Source: Synergistaceae bacterium
GTDB taxonomy: Bacteria; Synergistota; Synergistia; Synergistales; Aminobacteriaceae
Direction: 5' to 3'
NCBI GenBank assembly: GCA_031267575.1
Contig: JAIRYN010000076.1
Span: 1 to 33,744, forward strand
Length of the DNA stretch: 33,744 nt
Below the pieces are notes generated by a model that searched no databases, was not told the origin of the DNA, and saw only the letters and a program-made list of their open reading frames with translations. Both the position numbers and the translations under genes were made by a program. This document shows, piece after piece, positions 6,709 to 22,933 of the stretch. Positions within the stretch are counted from its first letter, which is position 1, and every line of letters begins with the position of its first letter.

Positions 6709-6786
6709 TGGTCGGGACGAGAGGATTCGAACCTCCGACCCCCTGCACCCCATGCAGATGCGCTAACCAGACTGCGCTACGTCCCG
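6709..6786 (-). tRNA. tRNA-Pro (anticodon GGG)
   Basis: A complete cloverleaf on the minus strand: acceptor CGGGACG/CGTCCCG, D stem GCGC/GCGC, anticodon stem TCTGC/GCAGG with loop ATGGGGT (anticodon GGG, reading CCC and CCU), T arm GGAGG-TTCGAAT-CCTCT, discriminator A and an encoded CCA end (6709-6711). Confidence 0.96.
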
Positions 6787-9681: not shown

Positions 9682-10275
9682 TACGTATATCAATTATTAA
9701 ATAAAAAAACATTAGCAAAAAATATGACATTCACCTCATCCTCACTCTATAATTTTACTAATTCAGATAATAACATTTTTCTGCACTTTAGTCCAATATA
9801 AGTTAGTTAGAAATTGTAGTTGTTCAATATGTAGTTGTTCAAAGGTAGAGGCACTAGACGAAAAGAGATCAAAGTAGTAAAGTAGTATCACAAGTTAGGA
9901 TATTGGGTTCGATGCAGAAAAACACAGGTTGCTTGGGTTGTGTTTGAAGTGATACTTTCAAGGCGATATGTGAATTAGAAGCAATATTAGAAGCAATAAG
10001 AGAAGCGATAAGAGAAGCGATAAGAGAAGCGTTTGGTAAAGGATTGCTGAAGCAAACGAAATTAATGTTTCGTTTGTAATATTGATTTGGGAAATGAAAA
10101 GAGTTATAGGAAGCTAAAGGAGTTAAAATATCAACAGCGGTTCTGGGGTGGTTCTGGAGTCGCGGGCGGTTCTGGAGTCGCGACGTTGGGTTGTATTTGC
10201 GTAAGATCAATGTTTTTTGTTTTGGATTTTTGTGGATATTTGTTTTGGATTTTTGTGGATAGAGGAAGTTTGGAC
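9682..10275. other. AT-rich intergenic region upstream of ribD with repeats, no convincing gene
   Basis: About 600 bases with stops in all frames or only low-complexity frames. It contains a 12-bp array ATAAGAGAAGCG x 3 with diverged TTAGAAGCAATA units before it (about 9975-10032). An 18-bp unit, GGTTCTGGAGTCGCGGGC type, occurs in two to three copies (about 10138-10182), and a 22-bp unit TTTTGGATTTTTGTGGATA plus three bases occurs twice (about 10217-10262). No FMN riboswitch consensus was found. A longer frame into ribD from 10087 runs through these repeats and is not credible. Confidence 0.75.
10053..10076. promoter_or_regulatory. Perfect 9-bp inverted repeat upstream of ribD
   Basis: CAAACGAAA and TTTCGTTTG are separated by TTAATG. 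The site lies about 200 bases before the ribD start and is followed by a TAATATT stretch. It could be an operator or a weak hairpin. No regulator is known from the window. Confidence 0.35.
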
Positions 10276-11391
10276 ATGATCGCGAAACGTAAAATAGACG
10301 AATACTATATGAGTCACGCTCTTTCTCTGGCTTGGCGGGGATTAGACACGACTTCCCCTAACCCTAGAGTCGGTTGTGTGTTGGTGAAAGAAGGACGCGT
10401 TATTGGTGAGGGATATCACGCTCGATGGGGAGGACCCCACGCCGAGGTGGTCGCCCTGAATGACGCGGCAAAAAAAGGCGGGGAAACGAAGGGCGCCACG
10501 GCCTACGTCACCTTGGAGCCTTGCTCCCATTTCGGAAAAACACCTCCCTGCGCTCCACGGTTGGTGGATGAGGGGATCGCTCGTGTTGTTGTCGGTTCAG
10601 TGGACCCCAACCCCAAGGTAAAGGGGAAGGGACTCGAAATTCTGAAGGCTGCGGGGGTGGAAGTGTCATTTCCCTGTTTGGAAAAAGAGTGCAAATGGCT
10701 GAACAGAGGGTTTTTCAGGAGCAAAACCCTGAATCGTCCTTGGGTCACATTGAAGGCCGCCACAGGATTAGATGGGAAAATGGCCCTTGCTTCTGGAGAG
10801 AGCAAGTGGATCACCGGCGATACAGCAAGAAATTGGGCGCATCTTCTGCGGGCCGAGCACGATGGGATTCTTGTGGGTGTGGGAACGGTCCGAGTGGACG
10901 ATCCCGAACTGACGGCGCGGAACACTTGCGGTAAATCGCCTTTACGCATAATATTAGACGTGGATCTTTCGTTGCCCCTAAATTCCCGTGTCTTACAAGG
11001 GGGGTGTCTGATTTTCGCGGATGGCGACGGTTCAGGATTTTCGAGAAAAAAGCGGACCCTCGAACAGGCGGGGGCAGAAGTTTGCGTCGTCCCCTCCGTT
11101 GGAGGACGTGTTGATTTGAAATCCGTTCTTCAGGAACTGACGACGCGGCAGGTACAGTCCTTGATGGTCGAAGGCGGCCCCAAGGTCATTTCCGCCTTCA
11201 TTGAGGCGGAGTTTTGCGACTCCCTGGTCCTTTTCGCGTCGGCGTCTTTGTTAGGCGAAGGGCGCGGGCTGGGAGAGGGGTTGCGTTTCGATTCTATGGG
11301 GAACACGGTTCGTCTGAGAGAGACGACGGTGAGACGCGCGGGGGAGGACCTGCTTGTGGAGGGGATTTTTCGATGTTCACCGGCCTTGTAG
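10276..11391 (+). CDS. ribD: Bifunctional pyrimidine deaminase/reductase RibD
   Basis: It catalyses the second and third steps of riboflavin synthesis: deamination of the GTP-derived pyrimidine, then NADPH-dependent reduction of the ribosyl chain. The 371-residue protein has the deaminase zinc motif HAE at 55-57 and PCSHFGKTPPC with Cys83 and Cys92. The reductase domain follows from about residue 145 (TLKAATGLDGKMALASGESKWITGD, then MVEGGPKVISAF). The start ATG has GAGGAAG upstream. An extension to 10087 is rejected because it runs through noncoding repeats. It is first in ribD-ribE-ribBA-ribH and overlaps ribE by 19 bases. No FMN riboswitch is visible upstream. Confidence 0.96.
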   Translation: MIAKRKIDEYYMSHALSLAWRGLDTTSPNPRVGCVLVKEGRVIGEGYHARWGGPHAEVVALNDAAKKGGETKGATAYVTLEPCSHFGKTPPCAPRLVDEGIARVVVGSVDPNPKVKGKGLEILKAAGVEVSFPCLEKECKWLNRGFFRSKTLNRPWVTLKAATGLDGKMALASGESKWITGDTARNWAHLLRAEHDGILVGVGTVRVDDPELTARNTCGKSPLRIILDVDLSLPLNSRVLQGGCLIFADGDGSGFSRKKRTLEQAGAEVCVVPSVGGRVDLKSVLQELTTRQVQSLMVEGGPKVISAFIEAEFCDSLVLFASASLLGEGRGLGEGLRFDSMGNTVRLRETTVRRAGEDLLVEGIFRCSPAL

Positions 11392-12020
11392 AAGCAATAG
11401 GGAAAGTCTTGGACGTCCGAGAAACCCGTGACGTCTTTCGCCTTTCTATCGAATGCCCGGAGTTCGCCTCGGAGTTGGCGTTGGGACAGTCCGTGTCAGT
11501 AAGTGGGGCTTGTCTTTCTGTGGCGGCGGTGAGGGCGAGCGTCTTCGACGTGGAAATGATGCCAGAAACCGTGAAACGGACGCGTTTCGTTTTTTTGACA
11601 CGGGGAGTTTTCGTGAACCTGGAGCGAGCGATGAAGTTGGGCGAGCGCTTGGACGGGCATCTGGTGCTGGGACATGTGGACGGAACAGCGAAGGTCGAGA
11701 AACTGTCAGGCTCGGCTCGGACGAAAAAGGCTTTTTTCCGCGCCGACCAAGACGTGACGCGTTATATCGTGCCAAAAGGGTCCGTGGCGGTGGACGGGGT
11801 CAGTTTGACCGTGATCGACGCGGGCGCTGGAGGTTTTTCCGTGGGGCTGATTCCGACAACACTGGAGAGCTGCACCTTGGGCCGCCTCGCGCCGGGAGAT
11901 GTCGTCAATATAGAGACCGACGTCATCGGGAAGTACGTGGAGCGATTGCTGAGCCCAGAGCGCGCTTCAGCGACGTCGGGTTTGACGTTGGGGGAGATGT
12001 ATGAACTTGGTTATGGATAA
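11373..12020 (+). CDS. ribE: Riboflavin synthase alpha subunit
   Basis: It dismutates two molecules of 6,7-dimethyl-8-ribityllumazine into riboflavin and the pyrimidine precursor, the last step of the pathway. The 215-residue protein starts with the invariant MFTGLVE and shows the two duplicated barrel halves: [13 protein letters not shown] and [10 protein letters not shown] in the first, [14 protein letters not shown] and [14 protein letters not shown] in the second. It ends with [15 protein letters not shown]. The start overlaps the end of ribD and has GGAGGGG upstream. The end overlaps ribBA by 20 bases, so the three genes are tightly coupled. Confidence 0.96.
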
Positions 12021-13335
12021 AGGCCGGCAATCGGCCGAAGAATATGGAGAAACGGAACTGGTGGGCAACGAAGTAAGGAACGAAGTAAGGTTTGAAGTAA
12101 GGAACGAAGTAAGGTTTGATGCCGTGAAATTCGACACGATTGAGGACGCGATCGAGGACATCCGCCAGGGCCGTATGGTTTTGGTTGTGGACGATGAATC
12201 CAGGGAGAACGAAGGTGACGTGATTATGGCGGCGGCGCACGCCACCACGGAGAAAATCAACTTCATGGCTCGTCACGCCCGGGGTTTGATTTGTGCGCCG
12301 GTTTCAGAAGAGATCGCGAAGCGGCTCCAGTTGGATCTCATGACGAAACAAAGTTCGGATAAACACGGAACAGCGTTTCTGGTGTCGGTGGACGCGAAAG
12401 AAGGTATCTCTACGGGAATCTCCGCCGAGGAGCGGGCGATCACCGCGCGGCTTTTGGCGGACCCAGAGGCGCGTCCCGATGACTTCTACCGGCCGGGGCA
12501 TTTGTTTCCTTTGGCCGCCAAAACGGGCGGTGTCTTAAAACGGGCGGGGCACACGGAGGCCACGGTAGACCTGGTGCGGTTAGCGGGGTTGCCTCTGGCG
12601 GGGTTGTGTTGCGAAATTATGAAAGAAGACGGAACAATGGCGCGTTTACCGGATCTGGCGCCTTTCGCGGTCCAGCATAGGTTGAGGCTGATTACCGTGC
12701 GGGACCTCATCGCTTGGCGCGCTACTCGTGAAAAACTCGTGGAGAAGGTTGTCGAGGTCAATCTGCCGACGGAGTTCGGACTGTTTCGCGCCCACGCCTA
12801 CCGCAATACCTTGGAGGACGACGATGGCCATACCCATATCGCCCTGGTGAAGGGGGACATCTCCAGCGTCTCCAATGTTTTGGTGCGCGTCCACAGCGAA
12901 TGCCTGACAGGCGACGTATTCGGGTCCTTGCGCTGCGACTGTGGCCCCCAGCTTCACACCGCTCTGGAAATGATCGGCAAAGAAGGCGTTGGGGTGTTAC
13001 TTTACATGCGCCAAGAAGGGCGCGGCATAGGAATCCTCAATAAGCTGAAGGCCTACAAACTTCAGGAAGAGGGTATGGATACGGTAGACGCGAATATTGC
13101 TTTGGGCTACGCCCCGGACTTGCGTGACTATGGCACGGGCGCTCAAATCTTGAAAGACTTGGGGTTAAAAAAAATCCGCCTTCTGACCAACAATCCCCAC
13201 AAAATCGTGGGTCTGGAAGGACATGGCCTTCAGATCATAGATAGAGTACCATTAGTGATCGAACCCAACGAGTTCAATAAGGATTACATGCGCACCAAAG
13301 AAAGCAAGATGGGGCATTTACTGCACTCGCTGTAA
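12001..13335 (+). CDS. ribBA: Bifunctional 3,4-DHBP synthase / GTP cyclohydrolase II
   Basis: The N-terminal half makes 3,4-dihydroxy-2-butanone 4-phosphate from ribulose 5-phosphate, and the C-terminal half opens GTP; together they supply both precursors of the pathway. The 444-residue protein has the RibB motif [15 protein letters not shown] and [20 protein letters not shown]. It has the RibA zinc cysteines Cys301, Cys312 and Cys314 ([19 protein letters not shown]) and RQEGRGIG. The first 40 residues are not part of the normal enzyme: they carry [16 protein letters not shown], encoded by a 12-bp x 4 array, and IEDAIEDI follows. The ATG at 12001 has GGGGGAG upstream and lies within ribE. Translation from a later start cannot be excluded but no better site is evident. 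Confidence 0.95.
12070..12117. repeat. 12-bp tandem array, 4 copies, in the 5' end of ribBA
   Basis: GAAGTAAGG followed alternately by AAC and TTT, four exact units (a 24-bp higher-order unit repeated twice). It encodes [16 protein letters not shown] and keeps the frame. Confidence 0.95.
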
Positions 13336-13358
13336 CGTGACGGTTCGCGAGATACACA

Positions 13359-13388
13359 CGTCAATACATGTCAATACACGTCAATATG
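13359..13388. repeat. 10-bp tandem array, 3 copies, between ribBA and ribH
   Basis: ACGTCAATAC-type units, three copies with single changes, fill most of the 66-base gap between ribBA and ribH and stop just before the ribH ribosome binding site. Confidence 0.85.
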
Positions 13389-13401
13389 GGAGGTTCGGGG
13401 A

Positions 13402-13887
13402 ATGAAAATAGTGGAAGGAAAATTGATAGGTACGAAGCTTTCGATAGCGATTGTCGTTTCCCGTTTCAACGAGTTGATCTCCAACAAACTTCTTGAGGGG
13501 GCGAAAGACGCGCTTTTGCGTCATGATGTGTCTTACCAGCATATAGAGGTTTATTGGGCTCCAGGCTCCTGGGAGCTGCCTTTAGTGGCCAAGGAACTTG
13601 CTCTTTCCGGCAAGTACGACGCGATTATCGCCTTGGGGGCTGTCATTCGCGGGGATACACCTCACTTCGACTATGTATCCTCGGAGGTGTCCAAAGGGCT
13701 GGCCCTTGTGGGCTTGGAACAGCGCGTTCCCGTCCTGTTCGGCGTCCTGACCTGCGATACTTTAGAGCAAGCCCTCCTGAGGGCCGGCAGCAAGGCGGGG
13801 AACAAAGGAGCGGATTGCGCCTGTGGGGCCATCGAAATGGCTAACCTCTTGAGAAACATCCGAGTCGGAGAAAAAGGCGGCGTTTAA
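13402..13887 (+). CDS. ribH: 6,7-dimethyl-8-ribityllumazine synthase
   Basis: It condenses the pyrimidine from RibD with DHBP to give lumazine, the substrate of RibE. The 161 residues are the normal size. Motifs are clear: [15 protein letters not shown] near the N terminus, [25 protein letters not shown] with the active-site histidine, and [14 protein letters not shown] followed by [18 protein letters not shown]. The ATG has GGGAGG upstream. It is last in the riboflavin operon, separated from ribBA by a short gap containing a 10-bp repeat. The enzyme is usually an icosahedral or pentameric assembly, which cannot be judged here. Confidence 0.96.
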
Positions 13888-13951
13888 CTAACAGAATTTG
13901 TGGGTTTTATAAACTTCGTCTTCCCCAGCATAAATTGAATTCGCTCCGGAG

Positions 13952-15703
13952 GTGTCGTTTCTTTTGACCGTTTCCTATAGCTTGGAAATGATATTGGGGT
14001 GTGTAAGCGCGGCCGTTTTGTGCGTCCTCGTTCAATACCTGACAAAAAGGTTTTTCGACGCGCGGCAATACGGTTACTTGCGCGACTTGATTCTAGCCGC
14101 GGCGTGGTTGCTGTTGGCGATCTGGTTCGGCTCGCCTCAGTCTCGATTCGTGGTGGGTGCCGCTTTTATCGCGGGAATAGTGGGGTTGACGGAGGTCTGC
14201 TGGCCCAAACGTTCTTGGCGTTGGGCGTATCTTCTCATCGGCCTTTCCTGCGCCCTTTTCGGTCCGTCCATCAGCTTCATCAGTTTTGTGGATGGGGAGT
14301 ATATCTACCTGACTCCCCTGACGTCGATCATCGTCACAGCCCTGTGGTTCATGGCTTTCCCCCTCGTTTTGCAGCAGTTGGATGGGATTCCCGGCCTGGT
14401 GGGGTACATGTTGGCCGTGACTTTTTCTCTGATGCTGACCTCTGTCGTGTTGGCGATGCGGGGGATGCAGGACGCTTTTTTTATGTCCTTCGGTGGGCTT
14501 CTCCTCTTGGTGGCGTTTTGGAGCCGTTTCAGCAACTTCTACCGTCAGGCGGGTAAAGCATTATCGGCGATGTGGGGAACTCTGGCCGCTGGGACGGCAA
14601 TCCTGGGAGTCAGCAAGGGTATCGTTTTTAGCTCTATGTTCTATCTATCCCTGGGGCTTTTCGCTATTCCCTTCGCGGAAGCCTCCTTCCACCTGGTAAG
14701 TTTGGCCTTGTCCGACGCCTCTCACGGCACGGAAAGGCTCTACCGTAAATTGATTCGGAGCGGGTTGGATCATCCCGACGCTGTGCGGGTGATCGCCGGC
14801 CTTTGCGCCTTTTTAGGAACCCTCACGACCCTGTCTCAATACCCGCCCAACTACGCGACGTGGATCGGATGGGCCGCCATGGGATGGGTGGTTTTTGTAC
14901 TGCTAGGTTTGCTGCTTTGGAAGTACCGGCACAGGTCCCCTATGACCCACACGAAACCCCACCTTTGGGGCGTCTCCGTCGATAACATGTCCCTTAACTA
15001 CGCACTGGCCAGAGCTAGGGGCATGGTTTTGTCCGCCAGCGGAACGCGACTGGTAGCCACAGTCAACGCCCTGGGAATGAACGAGGCGGTGCGTGACAAA
15101 GAATATCATCGCGTCTTGAGACATTCGGCGATAGTTCTGTCGGACGGGGTGGGTCTTTTGTGGGGATTGCGCTTTCTGGGTATGCCCATCCAAGAACGGG
15201 TAACGGGCATAGACTTTGCGGAACAGCTCTGCCGGATGGCGGCGGTGGAAGGGTGGCCGGTGTATTTTCTGGGATCTAGAGGCAACACGGCCTTGGTCTG
15301 CGCCAAGGTCATGGCTGCGCGGTATCCGGGGCTGGTGGTGGCAGGAGCCCGAGATGGCTATTTTGCTATAGACGACCTTTCGGTGGTGGAGTCCGTGGTG
15401 CGGTCTGGAACGAAAATTCTCTTTGTGGCTATGGGAATTCCTCGCCAGGAAAAATGGGTGGTTCGCCACTCTCACCGGCTGGGCAATGTCTTGGCCGTGG
15501 GCATTGGCGGTGCTTTTGACGTGCTTTCCGGACAATTGAGACGTGCTCCGGCCATCATGCAAAAAATGGGACTGGAGTGGCTTTTCAGGTTATGTCAGGA
15601 ACCCTTCCGCTGGAAAAAGGACTTGATGTTGATCGTCTTCGTTTTTCGTGTTTTGCTGACGCGGGTGGGACTTTATTCTTGGAAGGAGGGGCATCAGGAA
15701 TGA
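13952..15703 (+). CDS. Membrane-anchored WecG/TagA/CpsF-family glycosyltransferase fused to a degenerate WecA/TagO-like domain
   Basis: The C-terminal part (about residues 330-583) is a GT26 transferase. Its LSDGVGLLWGLRFLG (Asp398) and KILFVAMGIPRQEKW are family motifs. Such enzymes add ManNAc or a related sugar to an undecaprenyl-linked GlcNAc at the inner membrane. The N-terminal 320 residues are a multi-helix membrane domain. At the places where WecA/TagO/MraY enzymes have DD and NxxNxxDGxDG it has Thr80-Glu81 and QQLDGIPG (Asp144, Pro147), with spacing close to that of WecA. It therefore looks like a dead polyprenyl-phosphate sugar-1-phosphate transferase kept as a scaffold. The start is uncertain: GTG 13952, or TTG 13964, which is better spaced from GGAGG. 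The stop overlaps the next gene (ATGA). Confidence 0.85.
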   Translation: MSFLLTVSYSLEMILGCVSAAVLCVLVQYLTKRFFDARQYGYLRDLILAAAWLLLAIWFGSPQSRFVVGAAFIAGIVGLTEVCWPKRSWRWAYLLIGLSCALFGPSISFISFVDGEYIYLTPLTSIIVTALWFMAFPLVLQQLDGIPGLVGYMLAVTFSLMLTSVVLAMRGMQDAFFMSFGGLLLLVAFWSRFSNFYRQAGKALSAMWGTLAAGTAILGVSKGIVFSSMFYLSLGLFAIPFAEASFHLVSLALSDASHGTERLYRKLIRSGLDHPDAVRVIAGLCAFLGTLTTLSQYPPNYATWIGWAAMGWVVFVLLGLLLWKYRHRSPMTHTKPHLWGVSVDNMSLNYALARARGMVLSASGTRLVATVNALGMNEAVRDKEYHRVLRHSAIVLSDGVGLLWGLRFLGMPIQERVTGIDFAEQLCRMAAVEGWPVYFLGSRGNTALVCAKVMAARYPGLVVAGARDGYFAIDDLSVVESVVRSGTKILFVAMGIPRQEKWVVRHSHRLGNVLAVGIGGAFDVLSGQLRRAPAIMQKMGLEWLFRLCQEPFRWKKDLMLIVFVFRVLLTRVGLYSWKEGHQE

Positions 15704-16176
15704 TCACTACGGTGGGAGATCTGATGGACCGCGACTTGACGGTGGTCATGGAGCATAGTACTATCAGCGAGGCCATTGATATTTTTTATTCTCACAGCGT
15801 GGCGGGGCTGCCGGTGGTGGATGTAGATTGGCGACTCGTGGGCTTTCTCTCCGAGACCGACATTTTACGCGCCGCGACTCCCTCCTACCTGGAGGTTCTC
15901 ACCCAAAGCTCGTTTCTGAGCGGAGAAGAAGAGGAGTTTGCGAGGGAGTTGGAGAAGCTGGGTGACCTGCCCGTTCGGGACTATATGGTCAAGCCTCCTA
16001 TCGCTGTGGAGCCTTACGTAAGCCTGATGTCCATTGCCGACCTGATGATACGCAAACATTTTCGCCGCCTTCCCGTTGTAGAAGACGGCGTTTTGATCGG
16101 TATCATAGACCGCCGGGCTCTGTGGAATTTCATGCTTGAGGGCTATGCGCGCAATGTGGAACAAGGCGAAGCTTAA
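15700..16176 (+). CDS. CBS-domain pair protein
   Basis: A 158-residue protein made of two CBS domains (about residues 5-60 and 95-150). The first shows VGDLMDRDLTVVMEHSTISEAIDIF and AGLPVVD, the second VRDYMVKPPIAVEPYVSL and RRLPVVEDGVLIGIIDR. CBS pairs bind adenine nucleotides and often sense energy state. The ATG overlaps the stop of the glycosyltransferase gene (ATGA) and has GGAAGGAGG upstream. It overlaps the first V-ATPase gene by 23 bases, so it may be co-expressed with, and perhaps regulate, the ATPase. That role is a guess from position only. Confidence 0.9.
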   Translation: MITTVGDLMDRDLTVVMEHSTISEAIDIFYSHSVAGLPVVDVDWRLVGFLSETDILRAATPSYLEVLTQSSFLSGEEEEFARELEKLGDLPVRDYMVKPPIAVEPYVSLMSIADLMIRKHFRRLPVVEDGVLIGIIDRRALWNFMLEGYARNVEQGEA

Positions 16177-16597
16177 TAAGGTACTTGGTAAGGCGAAGCC
16201 TTCGTCCCCTGAACTTGACCCTCTCGTCTCGACCTGGACGGAGCTAGAAGCGTTGCGCGCTCGGCTCGCCGAGGACATGGAGGATAAGAAAACCGAAATG
16301 GAGCGTTTCAAGGAGGAGACCTTGTGGCGTTTGAATTCTTTGTCCGACCGGACTATCGAGATCGCTCGCATGGAGGGACGGAATGCCGAAGCGCGCGTCG
16401 CCCAGGACAAAGCGGAAACCGAGGCGGAACTCGCCCAATGGAAAGCCCGCGTCCGGGAGCGGGTTCTGGATGAAAAAATTCTGGACACCCTGGCGGAGCA
16501 AACCATTCTTCGGCTGCTTCCCCCGACGGGAGAAGGGGACGTGTTAGCGTCCTCCGAAGTGGTGGTTTCTGAAACGAAAGGAGGTGGCGCTTCATGA
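16154..16597 (+). CDS. Probable V-type ATPase peripheral-stalk subunit (G/NtpF-like coiled coil)
   Basis: A 147-residue, very charged, almost wholly helical protein rich in Glu, Lys, Arg and Ala, with long heptad-like runs such as ALRARLAEDMEDKKTEMERFKEE. Sequence similarity to named families is not clear to me. The call rests on position: V/A-type operons often start with a short coiled-coil gene before subunit I, whose product pairs with subunit E in the peripheral stalk. I chose the ATG at 16154 with GAGGG upstream; a TTG at 16136 and an ATG at 16145 are also in frame. Its stop overlaps the start of the subunit I gene (ATGA), which shows translational coupling. It could also be an unrelated adaptor. 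Confidence 0.65.
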   Translation: MWNKAKLNKVLGKAKPSSPELDPLVSTWTELEALRARLAEDMEDKKTEMERFKEETLWRLNSLSDRTIEIARMEGRNAEARVAQDKAETEAELAQWKARVRERVLDEKILDTLAEQTILRLLPPTGEGDVLASSEVVVSETKGGGAS

Positions 16598-18567
16598 TCA
16601 CACACATGGCAAGGGTCGCTCTGTGGGGGGTGCGGGATAAAAAATCCGTTGTTGTGAGCCGCCTTTACGAGCTTGGAGTTTTCCATTTGACCACGTCCGA
16701 GGAAGCCATGGACGGAAGCCATCGTTTTCTCCTGGAAAAACTGCGGGAGCAGAGGGGGAAGGCGTTGAATCTTATCGAAGCTCTTCGGTGGGACGAGTGG
16801 CGGAAACTGACGGACGCCTTTGTGGAAAATGTGCGCTATAACCTTTCCCAGGATCTAGAAGCGATGACGGAGGAGATCGAGAGAAGTCTGCAACGCATTC
16901 AATCGCGTCTCGTTTGGATTAGGAGAAACCAGGAAAGACTACAGAACGACTTTATTGAGCTGCGAAAGGCCAATCTCATTTTGAAACGCGCCCAAGGGTT
17001 TTTAGAGCAGGAGAAGACCGTCCGGGGAGAGATGGCGATCTGGCGTTTGCCGCGACAAGGACAACACGCGTTGATCTCTAAAATCAATGGAGAGCTGGAT
17101 CTTTTACCCAGTGGCCATGAAAAGCCTTGGTTTCGCTACCATTCCATCGATTTCAACGACGGTTCTTCTTATCTGGTGACCAGTGCCTCCTACGAGGTGC
17201 AGCCCAAAATCAGAAACGGAGTCACCAACCTTCAGGGCTCTCGTTGGCGGTTGCTTGACTATACAGAGAAGAAAAAAGCGAAAGAAACCAATTTTGACGC
17301 TGAGGAAAGCGATTGGACCAAGGACAACGCCGACGAAAAATCCTTTCTGATAACGGCGCCGTCGCGGATCGCTCGGCTTTTGCGGCGGGCTCCGACTCGG
17401 ATAAGAGCGAATAGAGAAGAATTGCGTAAACTCTCCGACCAGTGGGGAGCGAATTTGGCCGCCGTTTACATTTTACTGAACGACCGCATGGAACAGCTCC
17501 TCATGGAGGCATCTGCCGAGGAGAACGAGGAGTTTTTCAGCTTGGAGGGCTGGATTCCGGAAAAAGATTTGGCCCGCACGAAAGCGGTATTGAAAGAGGA
17601 TTTCGGCGATTTCGTCATCGTGCGCTCCCGGCCCCCTGACCCCGCCAAAGACGGAGTGGTTCCCACCGCTTTGAGGAACGTCTCGATTTTCAAGCCCTTC
17701 GAACTGTTTCTGAAGTTACTACGTGTACCTCACTACAATGCCTATGACCCGACTCCCCTGATCGGGCTTTTCTTCCCCTTTTTCGCGGGCTGCATGGTGG
17801 GAGACATTGGCTACGGCGTTCTCATTCTGTGGGTGGGGCGGCATTTGAAGCAGAAGAAAACGGAGACCCTACGGGATGTGGGCGTCATTCTCTTGTTCGT
17901 CGCCTTTTGGAGCATCTTCTGGGGAGCCATGTTCGGGGAGTTTTTCGGGGACGTGGGGCACAGGCTTCTGCACATGAGACCCATCTGGGAGGACCGAGTC
18001 CACGCGATCTTGCAGGTCATGGGTTTCAGCGTGGCCTTGGGCACTACGCACGTGACGCTGGGGCTGCTCATCGGTGTGATTCAGGGGATACGGAACCGAC
18101 ACCGTCATCATTGGATGGAACGGCTGGGAAGTTTGCTGGTGATTGTGAGTCTGGTGGCGGCGCTGATGTTTTTGCGCGCTCAATTGCCGGCTTCCTTTTT
18201 CTCCATTCCGGTTATCCTGCTAATTTTTGCCCTGATTTTCCTGATTTGGGGCGGAGGTATCGGGGGCATTATCGAGTCTCTGAGCACCATTGGTAACATT
18301 ATCAGTTACGTTCGAATCGCCGCCATTGGTTTGTCGTCCGCTATTCTGGCGATGGTGGCCAGCACATTCGTGGATACTATAGAGGTTCCGCTGGTGGGGC
18401 TCTTCATGGCGTTCGCCATCCACCTTCTGAATTTCGTTCTGGCGATCGGGGGCTCCGCCCTACACGCCGCTCGGCTCCATTACGTGGAGTTCATGGGAAA
18501 ATTTTACGAAGATGGAACTCTCGCATATAAACCATTTGCCAAAAGGAGGAGTTTACACAATGGGTGA
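16594..18567 (+). CDS. ntpI: V-type ATPase subunit I (membrane stator, a-subunit type)
   Basis: The membrane stator subunit provides the ion half-channels and contacts the K ring. The 657-residue protein has a long coiled-coil cytoplasmic half (about 1-380) and a C-terminal membrane half with about seven to eight helices starting at PLIGLFFPFFAGCMVGDIGYG. The essential membrane arginine is Arg574 in SYVRIAAIGLS. The final ALHAARLHYVEFMGKFYEDG matches the family C terminus. It overlaps genes on both sides (ATGA at the start, 8 bases with ntpK at the end). Identification is firm. Confidence 0.95.
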   Translation: MITHMARVALWGVRDKKSVVVSRLYELGVFHLTTSEEAMDGSHRFLLEKLREQRGKALNLIEALRWDEWRKLTDAFVENVRYNLSQDLEAMTEEIERSLQRIQSRLVWIRRNQERLQNDFIELRKANLILKRAQGFLEQEKTVRGEMAIWRLPRQGQHALISKINGELDLLPSGHEKPWFRYHSIDFNDGSSYLVTSASYEVQPKIRNGVTNLQGSRWRLLDYTEKKKAKETNFDAEESDWTKDNADEKSFLITAPSRIARLLRRAPTRIRANREELRKLSDQWGANLAAVYILLNDRMEQLLMEASAEENEEFFSLEGWIPEKDLARTKAVLKEDFGDFVIVRSRPPDPAKDGVVPTALRNVSIFKPFELFLKLLRVPHYNAYDPTPLIGLFFPFFAGCMVGDIGYGVLILWVGRHLKQKKTETLRDVGVILLFVAFWSIFWGAMFGEFFGDVGHRLLHMRPIWEDRVHAILQVMGFSVALGTTHVTLGLLIGVIQGIRNRHRHHWMERLGSLLVIVSLVAALMFLRAQLPASFFSIPVILLIFALIFLIWGGGIGGIIESLSTIGNIISYVRIAAIGLSSAILAMVASTFVDTIEVPLVGLFMAFAIHLLNFVLAIGGSALHAARLHYVEFMGKFYEDGTLAYKPFAKRRSLHNG

Positions 18568-18781
18568 GAAAGCGATCATGGCGCTGGCCGCGGCACTGGC
18601 TGTGGCTATCCCCGCTCTGGCAACGGCTTACGCTCAAGCGCGTATCGGCAGCGCTGGGGCGGGAACCGTAGCGGAAAAACCGGAGACGTCGGGGACGATT
18701 ATTATCTTGGAGGCCATTCCCGAAACGATGGTCATTTTGGGCTTTGTCGTCGCCATCATGATCATCATGAGAATAGCCTAG
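18560..18781 (+). CDS. ntpK: V-type ATPase subunit K (proteolipid ring subunit)
   Basis: The ion-carrying ring subunit. From the ATG at 18560, with AAAGGAGGAG upstream, it has 73 residues and two membrane helices, so it is the single-hairpin form rather than the 4-helix form of Enterococcus. The second helix carries the ion-binding Glu55 in EAIPETMVILGF; Glu51 lies one turn before it. Many sodium-binding relatives have PETQ and a Tyr shortly after. Here Met57 and Leu60 stand at those places, so proton coupling is possible. That is an inference from a few residues. An upstream extension to 18512 lies inside ntpI and is not used. Confidence 0.93.
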   Translation: MGEKAIMALAAALAVAIPALATAYAQARIGSAGAGTVAEKPETSGTIIILEAIPETMVILGFVVAIMIIMRIA

Positions 18782-18790
18782 CCGACCGAT

Positions 18791-19429
18791 ATGAACCGCC
18801 CTTCGGGTGAACTCCTGGATGATCGCGAACCGGGATCCGAGGACTTGGTCGGGTTCAAGGAAGCCTTGTTAGCTCAACACAAAAAACGCTGCCTGGCGTT
18901 AAAGCGCTCCGTGGACGAGGATTTAGCGGATATCATTACGGCCCGCCGCATTGAAGTGGAGCGTATTGTTCATAGTTTGCGCCGCAGTCACGAAAAACAT
19001 CTTGAAGAGGTCTTAAAAACCAACCTCCATCACGTCAAGCGCCAGAAAAAAAGCTACGAGGCGGAGCTTCAGGACATTTTTTTCGAGACGCTGGAGAAGG
19101 CGGTACGCTCGCGGCTGGAAACCTTTCGCCATTCGCCTCGGTATGGAGCTGTTTTGGAGGCTTTGGCGGTGGAGGCGCAGACTTGTATTCAAGGAAATTC
19201 TACTTTATCCTGGGTCGCTTTGGTTGAGGAAGGTGACGCTCTTTTTCTGCCTCCTTCCTCTCGGGGAAACATTCGGGAGGTGCGCGAGGAACTGTGGGAC
19301 GTTTGGGGCGGTCTCGTTCTGGTCGAGGCCGGCGGGGGCGGAAGGGTCGTCGACAATACGTTCCGCGCCCGATGGAAACGACTACCTTCCTTATTCGCGT
19401 TCAAGCCCGATCTTCGCGATGATTTATGA
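18791..19429 (+). CDS. ntpE: V-type ATPase subunit E-like peripheral-stalk protein
   Basis: A 212-residue protein with a long N-terminal helix (about 20-110, rich in charged residues) and a C-terminal globular part ending VWGGLVLVEAGGGGRVVDNTFRARWKRL. That matches the GGxxxxxxDGxxxxDNTxxxR pattern of subunit E. Subunit E forms the peripheral stalk that holds the A3B3 head against rotation. The start ATG is 10 bases after ntpK, with a weak ribosome binding site. It overlaps ntpA by four bases (ATGA). N-terminal sequence is diverged from typical E subunits. Confidence 0.8.
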   Translation: MNRPSGELLDDREPGSEDLVGFKEALLAQHKKRCLALKRSVDEDLADIITARRIEVERIVHSLRRSHEKHLEEVLKTNLHHVKRQKKSYEAELQDIFFETLEKAVRSRLETFRHSPRYGAVLEALAVEAQTCIQGNSTLSWVALVEEGDALFLPPSSRGNIREVREELWDVWGGLVLVEAGGGGRVVDNTFRARWKRLPSLFAFKPDLRDDL

Positions 19430-21300
19430 CGAGGCGGCGAGAAATGGAAAAAATGCCTAGAAAGGGCGTCGTCGTTGGAATTTTAGGACCTGTTCTTGTG
19501 GCGGAGGTTGATTTTTCCGTCCGCATGTTTGAGGTTGTCCGCGTCGGCGAACGAGGACTTTTGGGCGAAGTTTTCGAGGTCGGGGTTCGAGATTCGGGCG
19601 ACCAGGGTCTGAATGTTGGTATTCAGATCTGGGAGGACCTCACAGGGCTGTCCGTGGGGGAAGAAGTGTTGTTCACCGGAGAACTTTTGAGCGTGGAACT
19701 AGGCCCCGGTTTTCTGGGTGAGGTTTTGGATGGTTTGGGACGGCTGTATTCCCGAAAGGAAAAGCTCTGGCGTTTCCAGCCGTCGGTGAGGGAGGGGGAA
19801 AAGATCTCTCCAGGAGATATCCTGGGAACGGTGATAGAGAGAGGCCGTTTTTCCCATCGGATTCTAGTCCCACCCGGCGCGCTCGCCGCGGAATCACGTG
19901 AACGGGACAACCGGGTAGCGTGGATTGCTCCAGAGGGAGAGTACACCGCCCAAGATTATATTTGCCGCCTGGAAAATGAATTTTCTTTGCCCCTGAGTCT
20001 AACGCAAAAATGGCCGGTTCGTGTACCAAGGCCATTGAAAGCGCGCCTGCCCTTGGATTATCCACTGTTCACGGGGCAGCGAGCACTGGATACTTTTTTA
20101 CCTCTGGCGCTAGGAGGCACTGCCGCCCTGACCGGCGGATCCGGCACGGGCAAAACGCTTTTGTTGCGATCTTTGGCCAAAGGGTGTGGGGCGGACGTGA
20201 TCGTCTATGTCGGTTGCGGCGAGCGGGGTAATGAAATAATGGAGATCCTCGATGATTTTTCCAAGGCAGCCTCCCTTCGATCCAATGGGCTTTCGAGCCT
20301 GATGGACCGCGCCATAGTGATCGCGGCGCCTTCCGACGCACCGGTAACGCTTCGAGAGATGGCAGTTCACTTGGGGTTAACCTTGGGAGAATACTATCGG
20401 GACATGGGATACGACGCGGTCGTGATGATCGACTCTGTTTCTCGCTGGGCGGAAGCGTCCAGGGAAATCGAAAGCCGTGTCGGAAAAACTTCCGGAGAGG
20501 AGGGATACCCACCCTGGCTGAACGCCCGGTTAGCCCTCTGTTGCGAGCGAGCGGGACGAGTTAAGGTTTTGGGCAAAAGTGCCCCTGGGTTGACAAATAA
20601 TTCTTCCCGTTCTGGATCAATAACCCTTATCAGCGCAATTTCGCCAGAGGGAGGGAATCTTTCGGACCCTGTGACTCAAGCGATGGCTAGATCTTCCGGT
20701 ACTTTTTGGGTACTGAATCAAGAATTGGCCCAAGCGCGTCGTTTCCCGGCGATCGACTGGAGCCGGAGCCATGCTTTTTATGAGAACGTCCTCGATGAAG
20801 CTTTTGCCCATGAGGCAAGCAAGGATTGGCCGGACTTGAAAGAGTATTTGAGAACCATAATGAAGTGGCGAGAAGAGCTTGCCGGCGCTTTGCGGCAAGG
20901 GGAGCGCGATGCCCTTTCGGAGGAGAATAAGTGGCTTTTGTACCACGCTGAGACCCTTGAAATCGTTTTTTTACGACAAAACGCCTACGGAGAAACTCGT
21001 TCTTCTCCGGCGCGAATGGCAGCAATGCTCCGTTTTCTGAAGACACTGGACGGCGAGGTTAGAAAAATCTTGAAAAAAGAACTTGTTTGTGACGTCGTAA
21101 CCGCTCTGCCATCGAGGCAGGAGATGCTCGCTTTGCGCGACCTGCCGGAGAAGGACTTTGAAAAAGCGGAGCGAAAATGGCTGGTTCGTTTCACGTCTGG
21201 ACTCACCTCATCCGCTCCGACTGAATCCGCTCCGACTGAATCCGCTCCAACTGAATCCACTCCAACTGAATCCACTCCAACTGAGGAGGCTGCTCCATGA
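19426..21300 (+). CDS. ntpA: V-type ATPase catalytic subunit A with a repeat-built C-terminal tail
   Basis: The nucleotide-hydrolysing subunit of the A3B3 head. The 624-residue protein has the P-loop GGSGTGKT at 237-244 (Lys243), the catalytic Glu266 in GERGNEIMEIL, DSVSRWAEASREI, GEEGYPPWLNARLA and SGSITLISAISPEGGNLSDPVTQ. The P-loop differs from the usual GPFGxGKT. The last 30 residues are an added low-complexity tail (APTES and TPTES units) encoded by a 15-bp x 5 array that runs into the ntpB ribosome binding site. The start is uncertain: ATG 19426 overlaps the ntpE stop, but ATGs at 19444 and 19453 are also possible and the last matches family N termini best. Identification is firm. Confidence 0.93.
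   Translation: MTRRREMEKMPRKGVVVGILGPVLVAEVDFSVRMFEVVRVGERGLLGEVFEVGVRDSGDQGLNVGIQIWEDLTGLSVGEEVLFTGELLSVELGPGFLGEVLDGLGRLYSRKEKLWRFQPSVREGEKISPGDILGTVIERGRFSHRILVPPGALAAESRERDNRVAWIAPEGEYTAQDYICRLENEFSLPLSLTQKWPVRVPRPLKARLPLDYPLFTGQRALDTFLPLALGGTAALTGGSGTGKTLLLRSLAKGCGADVIVYVGCGERGNEIMEILDDFSKAASLRSNGLSSLMDRAIVIAAPSDAPVTLREMAVHLGLTLGEYYRDMGYDAVVMIDSVSRWAEASREIESRVGKTSGEEGYPPWLNARLALCCERAGRVKVLGKSAPGLTNNSSRSGSITLISAISPEGGNLSDPVTQAMARSSGTFWVLNQELAQARRFPAIDWSRSHAFYENVLDEAFAHEASKDWPDLKEYLRTIMKWREELAGALRQGERDALSEENKWLLYHAETLEIVFLRQNAYGETRSSPARMAAMLRFLKTLDGEVRKILKKELVCDVVTALPSRQEMLALRDLPEKDFEKAERKWLVRFTSGLTSSAPTESAPTESAPTESTPTESTPTEEAAP
21211..21285. repeat. 15-bp tandem array, 5 copies, at the 3' end of ntpA
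   Basis: TCCGCTCCGACTGAA-type units, five in a row with a gradient of G to A changes, encoding SAPTE or STPTE. The array ends in GAGGAGG, the ntpB ribosome binding site, and keeps the reading frame. Confidence 0.95.
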
Positions 21301-22763
21301 GCAACTCGAATGCGAGGCTTTACAGAGAGGGATTCCAAAGCGTCAGAGGAGTGACTGGCCCCCTTCTTTTTGTAAATAACGCGAGGGGTGTCGGTTACGG
21401 TGAGTTCGTGACGATTGAGACGCGCTCCTGGGGGTCTCATGCCTGGGGATCTCATGGAAAACAAACCGTTACCCGCACGGGCCAGGTGCTTCAAATTCAG
21501 GATGACCTTTGCGTGATTCAGGTCTTCGATGACATCTTGGGGTTCGAGACAGGAAATACCACTGTGTGGGTGGAGCGCGACGTCGCTAAGGTCGGTGTGG
21601 GGGAACGCCTGCGCGGTCAGATCCTAAACGGCCGCGGACAAACGTTGGAGGGAAAGGACCTTTACGGGCTCGACGCGTTGCTTCCCATCAATGGTCTGTC
21701 GCTAAATCCTGTGACTCGCGCCGTCCCCTGCGAGCCCATCGAAACGGGGATGTCTGTTCTAGATCTAATGAACACCACAATGCGTGGACAAAGATTAGCG
21801 CTGCTAGGTGGACCGGGACTACCCGTCGGAGAGCTTGCGGCGCTCGTCGCTTCTCGCGCTCTTCTTCCCGGCAATGGGGATGCCTTTCTGGTGGTTTTTG
21901 CCGCTATGGGCGTTACTAGCCGAGAAGTGGATGTTTTTATGGAGTCATTTGTCCGTAGCGGGATACTGGAAAGCGGCGTCTTTTTGTTGAATAAAGCTGA
22001 CGATCCTGCTATAGAGCGACTCTTAACGCCTCGCGCCGCCCTGACCATCGCCGAATATTTCGCTTTCACCAAGGGTTACGATGTCCTTGTTGTCATGACG
22101 GACATGCTATGTTACGCTGAGGCGCTGCGAGAGGTTGGCGCGGCGCGGGGGGAATCTCTTGGGCGGATGGGATACCCCACGTATTTGTACTCCGACCTGG
22201 CGGGGATTTATGAGCGAGCCGGCTGTCTCGCTGGACGGAAGGGTAGGGTGACGCAGATTGTCACCGTCGGGATGCCGAACGATGACGCCGCCCATCCGGT
22301 GGCCGACGCGACGAGCCATATTGTCGACGGACAGATTGTCTTGGATCGGAGGTTGCACACCGCTGGCGTTTTTCCGCCCGTGGACGTATTGTCCAGTCTT
22401 TCACGGCCTATGAACAAGGGGATAGGGCATGGGCGCACTTTTGACACGCATCGTGTCCTCGCCGACCAGCTCCACGCTGCCTACGCGAAAGCCCAAGAGG
22501 TAAATTGCTTGAGGCACCACATCGGTGACAAAGGGCTTTCGGAAGTGGAAAAGAGCTACATAAAATTTGGAGAATCCTTTGAAAAACTTTTTGTCAATCA
22601 GAAACGAGAGAGAGGGAGGGAACAGTGGGGGCGAGAGACGGAAACGGTGGAAAGAAGGACGTTTATTCAGTCCGAAGCGAAAGCCTGGGAAATTTTGCGT
22701 CAGCTCCCCGCCGGAGAACTGTACCTATTGTCCCCTTCCTTGATGGCGCACAAGCTGAAGTAA
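21297..22763 (+). CDS. ntpB: V-type ATPase regulatory subunit B
   Basis: The non-catalytic partner of A in the head. The 488 residues include the expected degenerate nucleotide loop GGPGLPVGELA, FAAMGVTSREVDVFMESF, LNKADDPAIERLLTPRAALTIAEYFAF, DMLCYAEALREVGAARGE, GRMGYPTYLYSDLAGIYERAG and PPVDVLSSLSRPMNKGIG. All are family segments. It is slightly longer than usual because of an insertion around residues 40-60 with a 15-bp duplication (WGSHAWGSH, about 21428-21458). The ATG overlaps the ntpA stop and has GAGGAGG upstream. It is the last gene of the operon; the D subunit gene that normally follows B is not here. Confidence 0.94.
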   Translation: MSNSNARLYREGFQSVRGVTGPLLFVNNARGVGYGEFVTIETRSWGSHAWGSHGKQTVTRTGQVLQIQDDLCVIQVFDDILGFETGNTTVWVERDVAKVGVGERLRGQILNGRGQTLEGKDLYGLDALLPINGLSLNPVTRAVPCEPIETGMSVLDLMNTTMRGQRLALLGGPGLPVGELAALVASRALLPGNGDAFLVVFAAMGVTSREVDVFMESFVRSGILESGVFLLNKADDPAIERLLTPRAALTIAEYFAFTKGYDVLVVMTDMLCYAEALREVGAARGESLGRMGYPTYLYSDLAGIYERAGCLAGRKGRVTQIVTVGMPNDDAAHPVADATSHIVDGQIVLDRRLHTAGVFPPVDVLSSLSRPMNKGIGHGRTFDTHRVLADQLHAAYAKAQEVNCLRHHIGDKGLSEVEKSYIKFGESFEKLFVNQKRERGREQWGRETETVERRTFIQSEAKAWEILRQLPAGELYLLSPSLMAHKLK

Positions 22764-22857: not shown

Positions 22858-22933
22858 GCGCCTGTAGCTCAGTGGATAGAGTGACGGCCTCCGGAGCCGT
22901 AGGCCGGGCGTTCGAATCGCCCCAGGCGCGCCA
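22858..22933 (+). tRNA. tRNA-Arg (anticodon CCG)
   Basis: Cloverleaf with acceptor GCGCCTG/CAGGCGC, D arm GCTC-AGTGGATA-GAGT, anticodon stem ACGGC/GCCGT with loop CTCCGGA (anticodon CCG), T arm GGGCG-TTCGAAT-CGCCC, discriminator G and encoded CCA. A TGTGATAAT -10-like element lies about 25 bases upstream. Confidence 0.96.

Follow-up and report, generated by a model that had tools for sequence, protein, structure and literature searches.

A catalytically degenerate WecA/MraY-fold domain fused to a WecG/TagA-type glycosyltransferase in Synergistota

The passage of lipid-linked sugar intermediates between successive membrane enzymes is poorly understood. Among the enzymes of the PNPT family (PF00953), which includes WecA, TagO, MraY and DPAGT1, the Mg ligands of DPAGT1 are Asn185 and Asp252, with alanine mutants retaining 1.2% and 7% activity, and its Asp115/116 mutants have at least 10% activity left (PMC6218659). 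In MraY, D117, D118 and D265 are critical, D265 binding Mg (PMC6606608). The WecG/TagA family (GT26) is represented by TagA, whose catalytic residues include T37, D65, R83, Q167, R214 and R221 and whose C-terminal appendage is needed for activity (PMC6493773). A gene of a Synergistaceae bacterium joins a degenerate relative of the former family to a member of the latter.

The window, meaning the whole stretch of 33,744 nucleotides analysed, is contig C76 of a genome of 2.76 Mb that is 97% complete, the nearest named relatives of which are Synergistaceae MAGs at 71-79% identity. The gene, its alternative start and its main parts are as follows.

13952..15703, + strand: whole open reading frame of the pseudo-WecA/WecG fusion, 583 aa from GTG 13952; open reading frame confirmed
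13964, + strand: alternative TTG start giving 579 aa, based on the GGAGG position and orthologue starts
13982..14932, + strand: WecA/MraY-fold membrane domain, residues 11-327, with 11 predicted TM helices and a periplasmic beta-hairpin, catalytically degenerate
14852..14932, + strand: TM11, residues 301-327, poorly conserved (mean entropy 2.73), returning the chain to the cytoplasm in the model
14960..15667, + strand: WecG/TagA (GT26) domain with C-terminal appendage, residues 337-572, from PF03808, the TagA structure and the alignment

The real start is probably TTG 13964 rather than GTG 13952, because a GGAGG at 13948-13952 overlaps the GTG and orthologues (e.g. that of locus L010) begin with MTVSYS, four residues downstream of it.

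The AlphaFold2 model of the protein, built on a 44-sequence alignment with a mean pLDDT of 86.6, has eleven membrane helices together with two further hallmarks of MraY, a beta-hairpin on the periplasmic side and a break in TM9. Compared with the PDB, the N-terminal model superposes over about 284 residues on MraY (Z 23.6, 3.6 A) and human DPAGT1 (Z 22.5), with Z values of 21-24 across MraY and DPAGT1 structures against only 6.9 for the top unrelated structure. The predicted model of a sister-order orthologue gives Z 24.8 with MraY. The initial annotation had named a predicted fold unlike that of MraY/WecA as a finding that would overturn it, and the predicted structure is instead MraY/WecA-like. 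Profile-profile comparison assigns the domain a probability of 96.6 for WecA versus 55.6 for MraY, and its profile matches stand-alone WecA/TagO proteins of other phyla with E-values from 2e-26 to 1e-8. K and R make up 19.6% of the residues in segments of the domain predicted to be cytoplasmic and 6.6% in periplasmic ones, and in the model helix 11 places the transferase domain in the cytoplasm.

The N-terminal half of the window protein gives no Pfam match up to E = 1 and stays below the PF00953 cut-off, which is reached by second-order Synergistota orthologues with 41.5, 40.1 and 27 bits. No PDB sequence was matched by the N-domain profile, and the link to the PNPT family therefore rests on the fold and on comparison with genomic WecA. 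By predicted fold, profiles and the PF00953 matches of its orthologues, the N-terminal half is a PNPT/WecA homologue. Chance similarity to WecA/MraY was rejected on the predicted fold, the profile E-values and the orthologues over the Pfam cut-off, and also because the motif loss described below recurs in every aligned member, in one order and in its sister order.

The catalytic motifs were located in an alignment of 30 sequences including 17 intact WecA/TagO/MraY, and residue conservation was counted over 47 aligned fusion members. The sites concerned, together with a conserved cytoplasmic loop, are listed below.

14192..14197, + strand: E81-V82, site of the catalytic DD pair, from alignment with the 17 intact WecA/TagO/MraY
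14372..14395, + strand: Q141-G148 (QQLDGIPG), remnant of NxxDGxDG, with Asn replaced by Q141 and the second Asp by P147
14516..14554, + strand: cytoplasmic loop, residues 189-201 (FWSRFSNFYRQAG), one of the best conserved segments of the dead domain (mean entropy 0.97)
14555..14557, + strand: K202, site of the Mg-binding GD-motif Asp (MraY D265), from the motif alignment
14735..14746, + strand: R262-L-Y264-R265, site of HxHH, with Y264 kept in 47/47

Loss of the DD pair had been noted from the sequence at Thr80-Glu81; the loss stands, and the 30-sequence alignment shifts the site by one residue to Glu81-Val82. The third motif, NxxNxxDGxDG, had also been called lost, which is correct for its Asn and second Asp but not for Asp144 of NxxDG, which is invariant in all 47 aligned members together with G148. 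Two further losses emerged beyond the initial annotation, GD becoming GK202 and HxHH becoming R262-L-Y-R265. By motif alignment, Q141 and K202 are the equivalents of DPAGT1 Asn185 and Asp252. Neither Mg ligand survives in the aligned fusion members, where differing residues take its place, mostly Q or R at position 141 and mostly E, K or R at position 202 (n=47). D144, G148, Y264 and G271 never vary, all 47 members have Arg or Lys at position 192 (Arg in the window protein), and D45, R198, W208, E243 and H274 are conserved in Synergistales but not kept in the sister order. The intact WecA set of Synergistales retains DD, Asn and the GD Asp in 35/35. The loss of Asp at the catalytic sites is thus conserved among the homologues of the phylum, a point that the initial annotation had singled out for checking. 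Judged from these residues, the N-terminal domain is very probably catalytically dead, and since the catalytic DD, the Mg-ligand Asn and Asp and HxHH are replaced, it is classed by sequence as a homologue within the PNPT family and not as a PNPT enzyme.

The C-terminal half matches PF03808 (WecG/TagA/CpsF) over residues 393-556 with E 2e-56 and 190.8 bits against a cut-off of 27.4, and its model matches TagA 7mpk with Z 27. Together with the motif alignment, this bears out the original claim that a degenerate WecA-like domain is joined to the enzyme acting next in the pathway. T370, N372, D398, R416, Q499-E500, R546 and R553 correspond to TagA T37, N39, D65, R83, Q167-E168, R214 and R221, TagA R224 corresponds to Lys556, and the C-terminal appendage is present. 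The transferase half therefore looks active from its residue set. The fusion scores below the NCBIfam equivalog cut-offs for both TarA and WecG; the TarA equivalog NF041710, a ManNAc transferase model, scores 137.5 bits, below its 350-bit cut-off, for which reason no donor sugar is assigned. In the source genome the WecA gene adjoins WecB (UDP-GlcNAc 2-epimerase, TIGR00236) and a UDP-sugar dehydrogenase homologue lies elsewhere, so that ManNAc and ManNAcA are both conceivable donors.

The fused gene is the sole WecG of its source genome. With the window N-domain as query, a match was found in 143 of 151 Synergistota genomes, with one copy each apart from split fragments. The eight genomes without a match comprise three Synergistales, fragmented or incomplete, and five outside Synergistales. 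Outside Synergistales, three genomes of the sister order (f11) carry fused proteins of 585-593 aa that a single-sequence search misses because of their divergence but that Pfam and the predicted model identify clearly, a fourth genome holds the fusion gene in pieces, and one f12 genome is without WecG. The fusion is nearly universal and single-copy in Synergistales and is present in a second order as well. A recent pseudogene or MAG artefact was rejected, the open reading frame being conserved in more than 140 genomes with low dN/dS. A separate intact WecA, the presence of which the initial annotation had also raised, exists in the source genome and nearly everywhere else, being single-copy in 97 of 101 genomes. 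An intact fused ancestor was sought in the sister order and was not found, the fusions there being degenerate too.

Beyond Synergistota, WecG is mostly stand-alone in 199 Bacillota genomes, at about 240-320 aa; no PNPT-WecG fusion was seen there, the WecG domain being joined to other partners in the seven long ORFs among those listed. PNPT-WecG fusions with degenerate motifs also occur in two genomes of one further phylum (loci L204 and L206), where PF00953 scores 84 and 52 bits. In L206 the last helices are missing, EE replaces DD and GN replaces GD. Trees set both apart from the Synergistota clade without rejecting a single origin (N-domain p-AU 0.354, GT-domain p-AU 0.427).

The surroundings of the gene follow an old order. 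From 10087 to 22763 the window holds ribD-ribE-ribBA-ribH, the fused gene, a CBS-domain gene and V-ATPase genes, an order conserved in Synergistales; in many relatives serS separates ribH from the fusion, and the rib-serS-fusion part is common to the sister order too.

15700..16176, + strand: CBS-domain gene, next downstream, its start overlapping the fusion stop; a conserved neighbour outside the proposed mechanism

A functional tie of the fusion to the riboflavin genes was rejected, as the order reflects old housekeeping synteny and no mechanistic link was seen. No FMN riboswitch reaches the Rfam gathering score anywhere in the window, despite a complete riboflavin operon (10087-13887). ORFs 16136-16597 and 18791-19429, in the V-ATPase region and without Pfam matches, are presumably fast-evolving V-ATPase stalk subunits. 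The window also holds tRNA-Pro(GGG) at 6709-6786 on the minus strand and tRNA-Arg(CCG) at 22858-22933 on the plus strand. Elsewhere, in Synergistetes bacterium UR.bin68 (L039:6176-6643), a ribH homologue of 44% identity lacks a 14-residue motif, and its locus has no ribD or ribBA match; it is possibly a decaying or repurposed lumazine synthase. At L142:8032-8790, serS and the fusion flank an opposite-strand gene whose product is an LmeA-like phospholipid-binding protein (PF11209, E 3e-13), with similar ORFs at loci L141, L143 and L150 and none in the window.

Selection on the dead half is strong. Its dN/dS is 0.04-0.16 in unsaturated close pairs, mostly equal to or below that of the transferase half. 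The best conserved stretches of the dead half are cytoplasmic loops 144-148 and 189-201 and the short loop 222-225; TM5, TM8 and TM9a are intermediate, and TM1, the loops 84-90 and 254-261, TM11 and the linker vary most. Conservation thus peaks on the old active-site face and not on the tether helix, which is not what a plain tether would be expected to show. The catalytic residues are gone and the fold is under purifying selection, the combination that marks a pseudoenzyme. Because of the low dN/dS and the conservation on the old active-site face, with TM11 drifting, the dead half is probably a retained pseudoenzyme, neither a relic nor a plain anchor.

The dead half most likely captures Und-PP-GlcNAc and presents it to the fused transferase, a reading held with middling confidence in which we infer lipid binding, handover and donor. 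A separate intact WecA would make Und-PP-GlcNAc; the dead domain would capture it with its former polyprenyl groove and active-site face and hold it for the WecG/TagA-type half, which would transfer UDP-ManNAc or a derivative onto it. The dead domain no longer has metal, nucleotide and catalytic residues, but it retains the fold, one DGxDG Asp and a conserved basic and aromatic cytoplasmic face. Support comes from homology, the predicted fold, catalytic loss, the GT residue set, near-universal WecA co-occurrence and purifying selection. Several points weigh the other way: docking of the GT domain or of WecA could explain the conserved face equally well, some residues that Synergistales conserve are missing from the sister order, and TagA-type enzymes elsewhere need no such domain, most Bacillota WecG being stand-alone. 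Docking on live WecA, whose product would reach WecG within a complex of WecA and pseudo-WecA-WecG, is a less probable alternative. PNPTs are often dimers. Crystal structures show DPAGT1 and MraY as dimers (PMC6218659), the dead domain is strongly conserved and an intact single-copy WecA occurs nearly wherever the fusion does, although this co-occurrence is expected regardless, WecG needing the product of WecA, and the dimer interfaces differ between DPAGT1 and MraY.

That an old WecA, once fused, persists just as a membrane tether holding WecG in the correct orientation is unlikely. TagA-type enzymes must reach the membrane, which they do via the C-terminal appendage (PMC6493773), and helix 11 sets the GT domain in the cytoplasm in the model; yet one helix would suffice for this, the GT half retains its own appendage, dead-half dN/dS is as low as that of the GT half, and the conserved loops form the old active-site face whereas the true tether, TM11, drifts. 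Strong purifying selection and the conserved face therefore make a role in substrate handling or docking likelier than that of a passive anchor. A rebuilt active site that transfers sugar phosphate through different residues, making the protein bifunctional, is very improbable. D144 is invariant, and the activity left in DPAGT1 Asp115/116 mutants makes DD loss alone not decisive; however, the two Mg ligands and HxHH have given way to residues that vary between members, and nearly all genomes have a separate intact WecA. Extending the capture-and-presentation reading to the phylum, the polytopic WecA/MraY-fold pseudoenzyme would be a dedicated Und-PP-sugar receptor channelling to its fused transferase, possibly with a second independent origin elsewhere, a generalisation that we advance tentatively. 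To our knowledge and within the papers searched, no conserved PNPT-fold pseudoenzyme has been described earlier, and the Synergistota fusion would be the first. A dead enzyme of the first step, fixed onto that of the second in nearly the whole phylum, opens handover and substrate presentation to testing. Since the window protein itself escapes Pfam, other dead PNPT domains of this kind may go unnoticed elsewhere.

An open-licence literature search on WecG fusions, WecG in Synergistetes and PNPT/phosphoglycosyltransferase pseudoenzymes found no description of this arrangement; both families are known, and a degenerate PNPT-fold member fused to GT26 is new in the searched literature. Like WecA, TagO, MraY and DPAGT1 (PNPT, PF00953), the fusion has the family fold over about 284 residues with beta-hairpin and broken TM9, the motif positions in the same order and the NxxDG Asp. 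Unlike them, it has DD, the catalytic Asn, the metal Asp and HxHH all replaced, a shortened TM1-TM2 loop and a GT26 domain. The transferase half resembles TagA/TarA and WecG (GT26) in catalytic residues, C-terminal appendage and fold (TagA 7mpk, Z 27), but TagA as known is small and only peripherally bound to the membrane (PMC6493773), whereas here the GT domain follows an 11-helix pseudo-WecA. Other Bacillota WecG fusions, with pyruvyltransferase-like and other N-terminal halves, likewise place WecG at the C-terminus of a larger protein and differ in that the partner is without PNPT similarity. The PNPT-WecG proteins of L204 and L206 share the architecture and have similarly degenerate PNPT motifs but, by their PF00953 scores, stand nearer to active WecA than the Synergistota fusion does.
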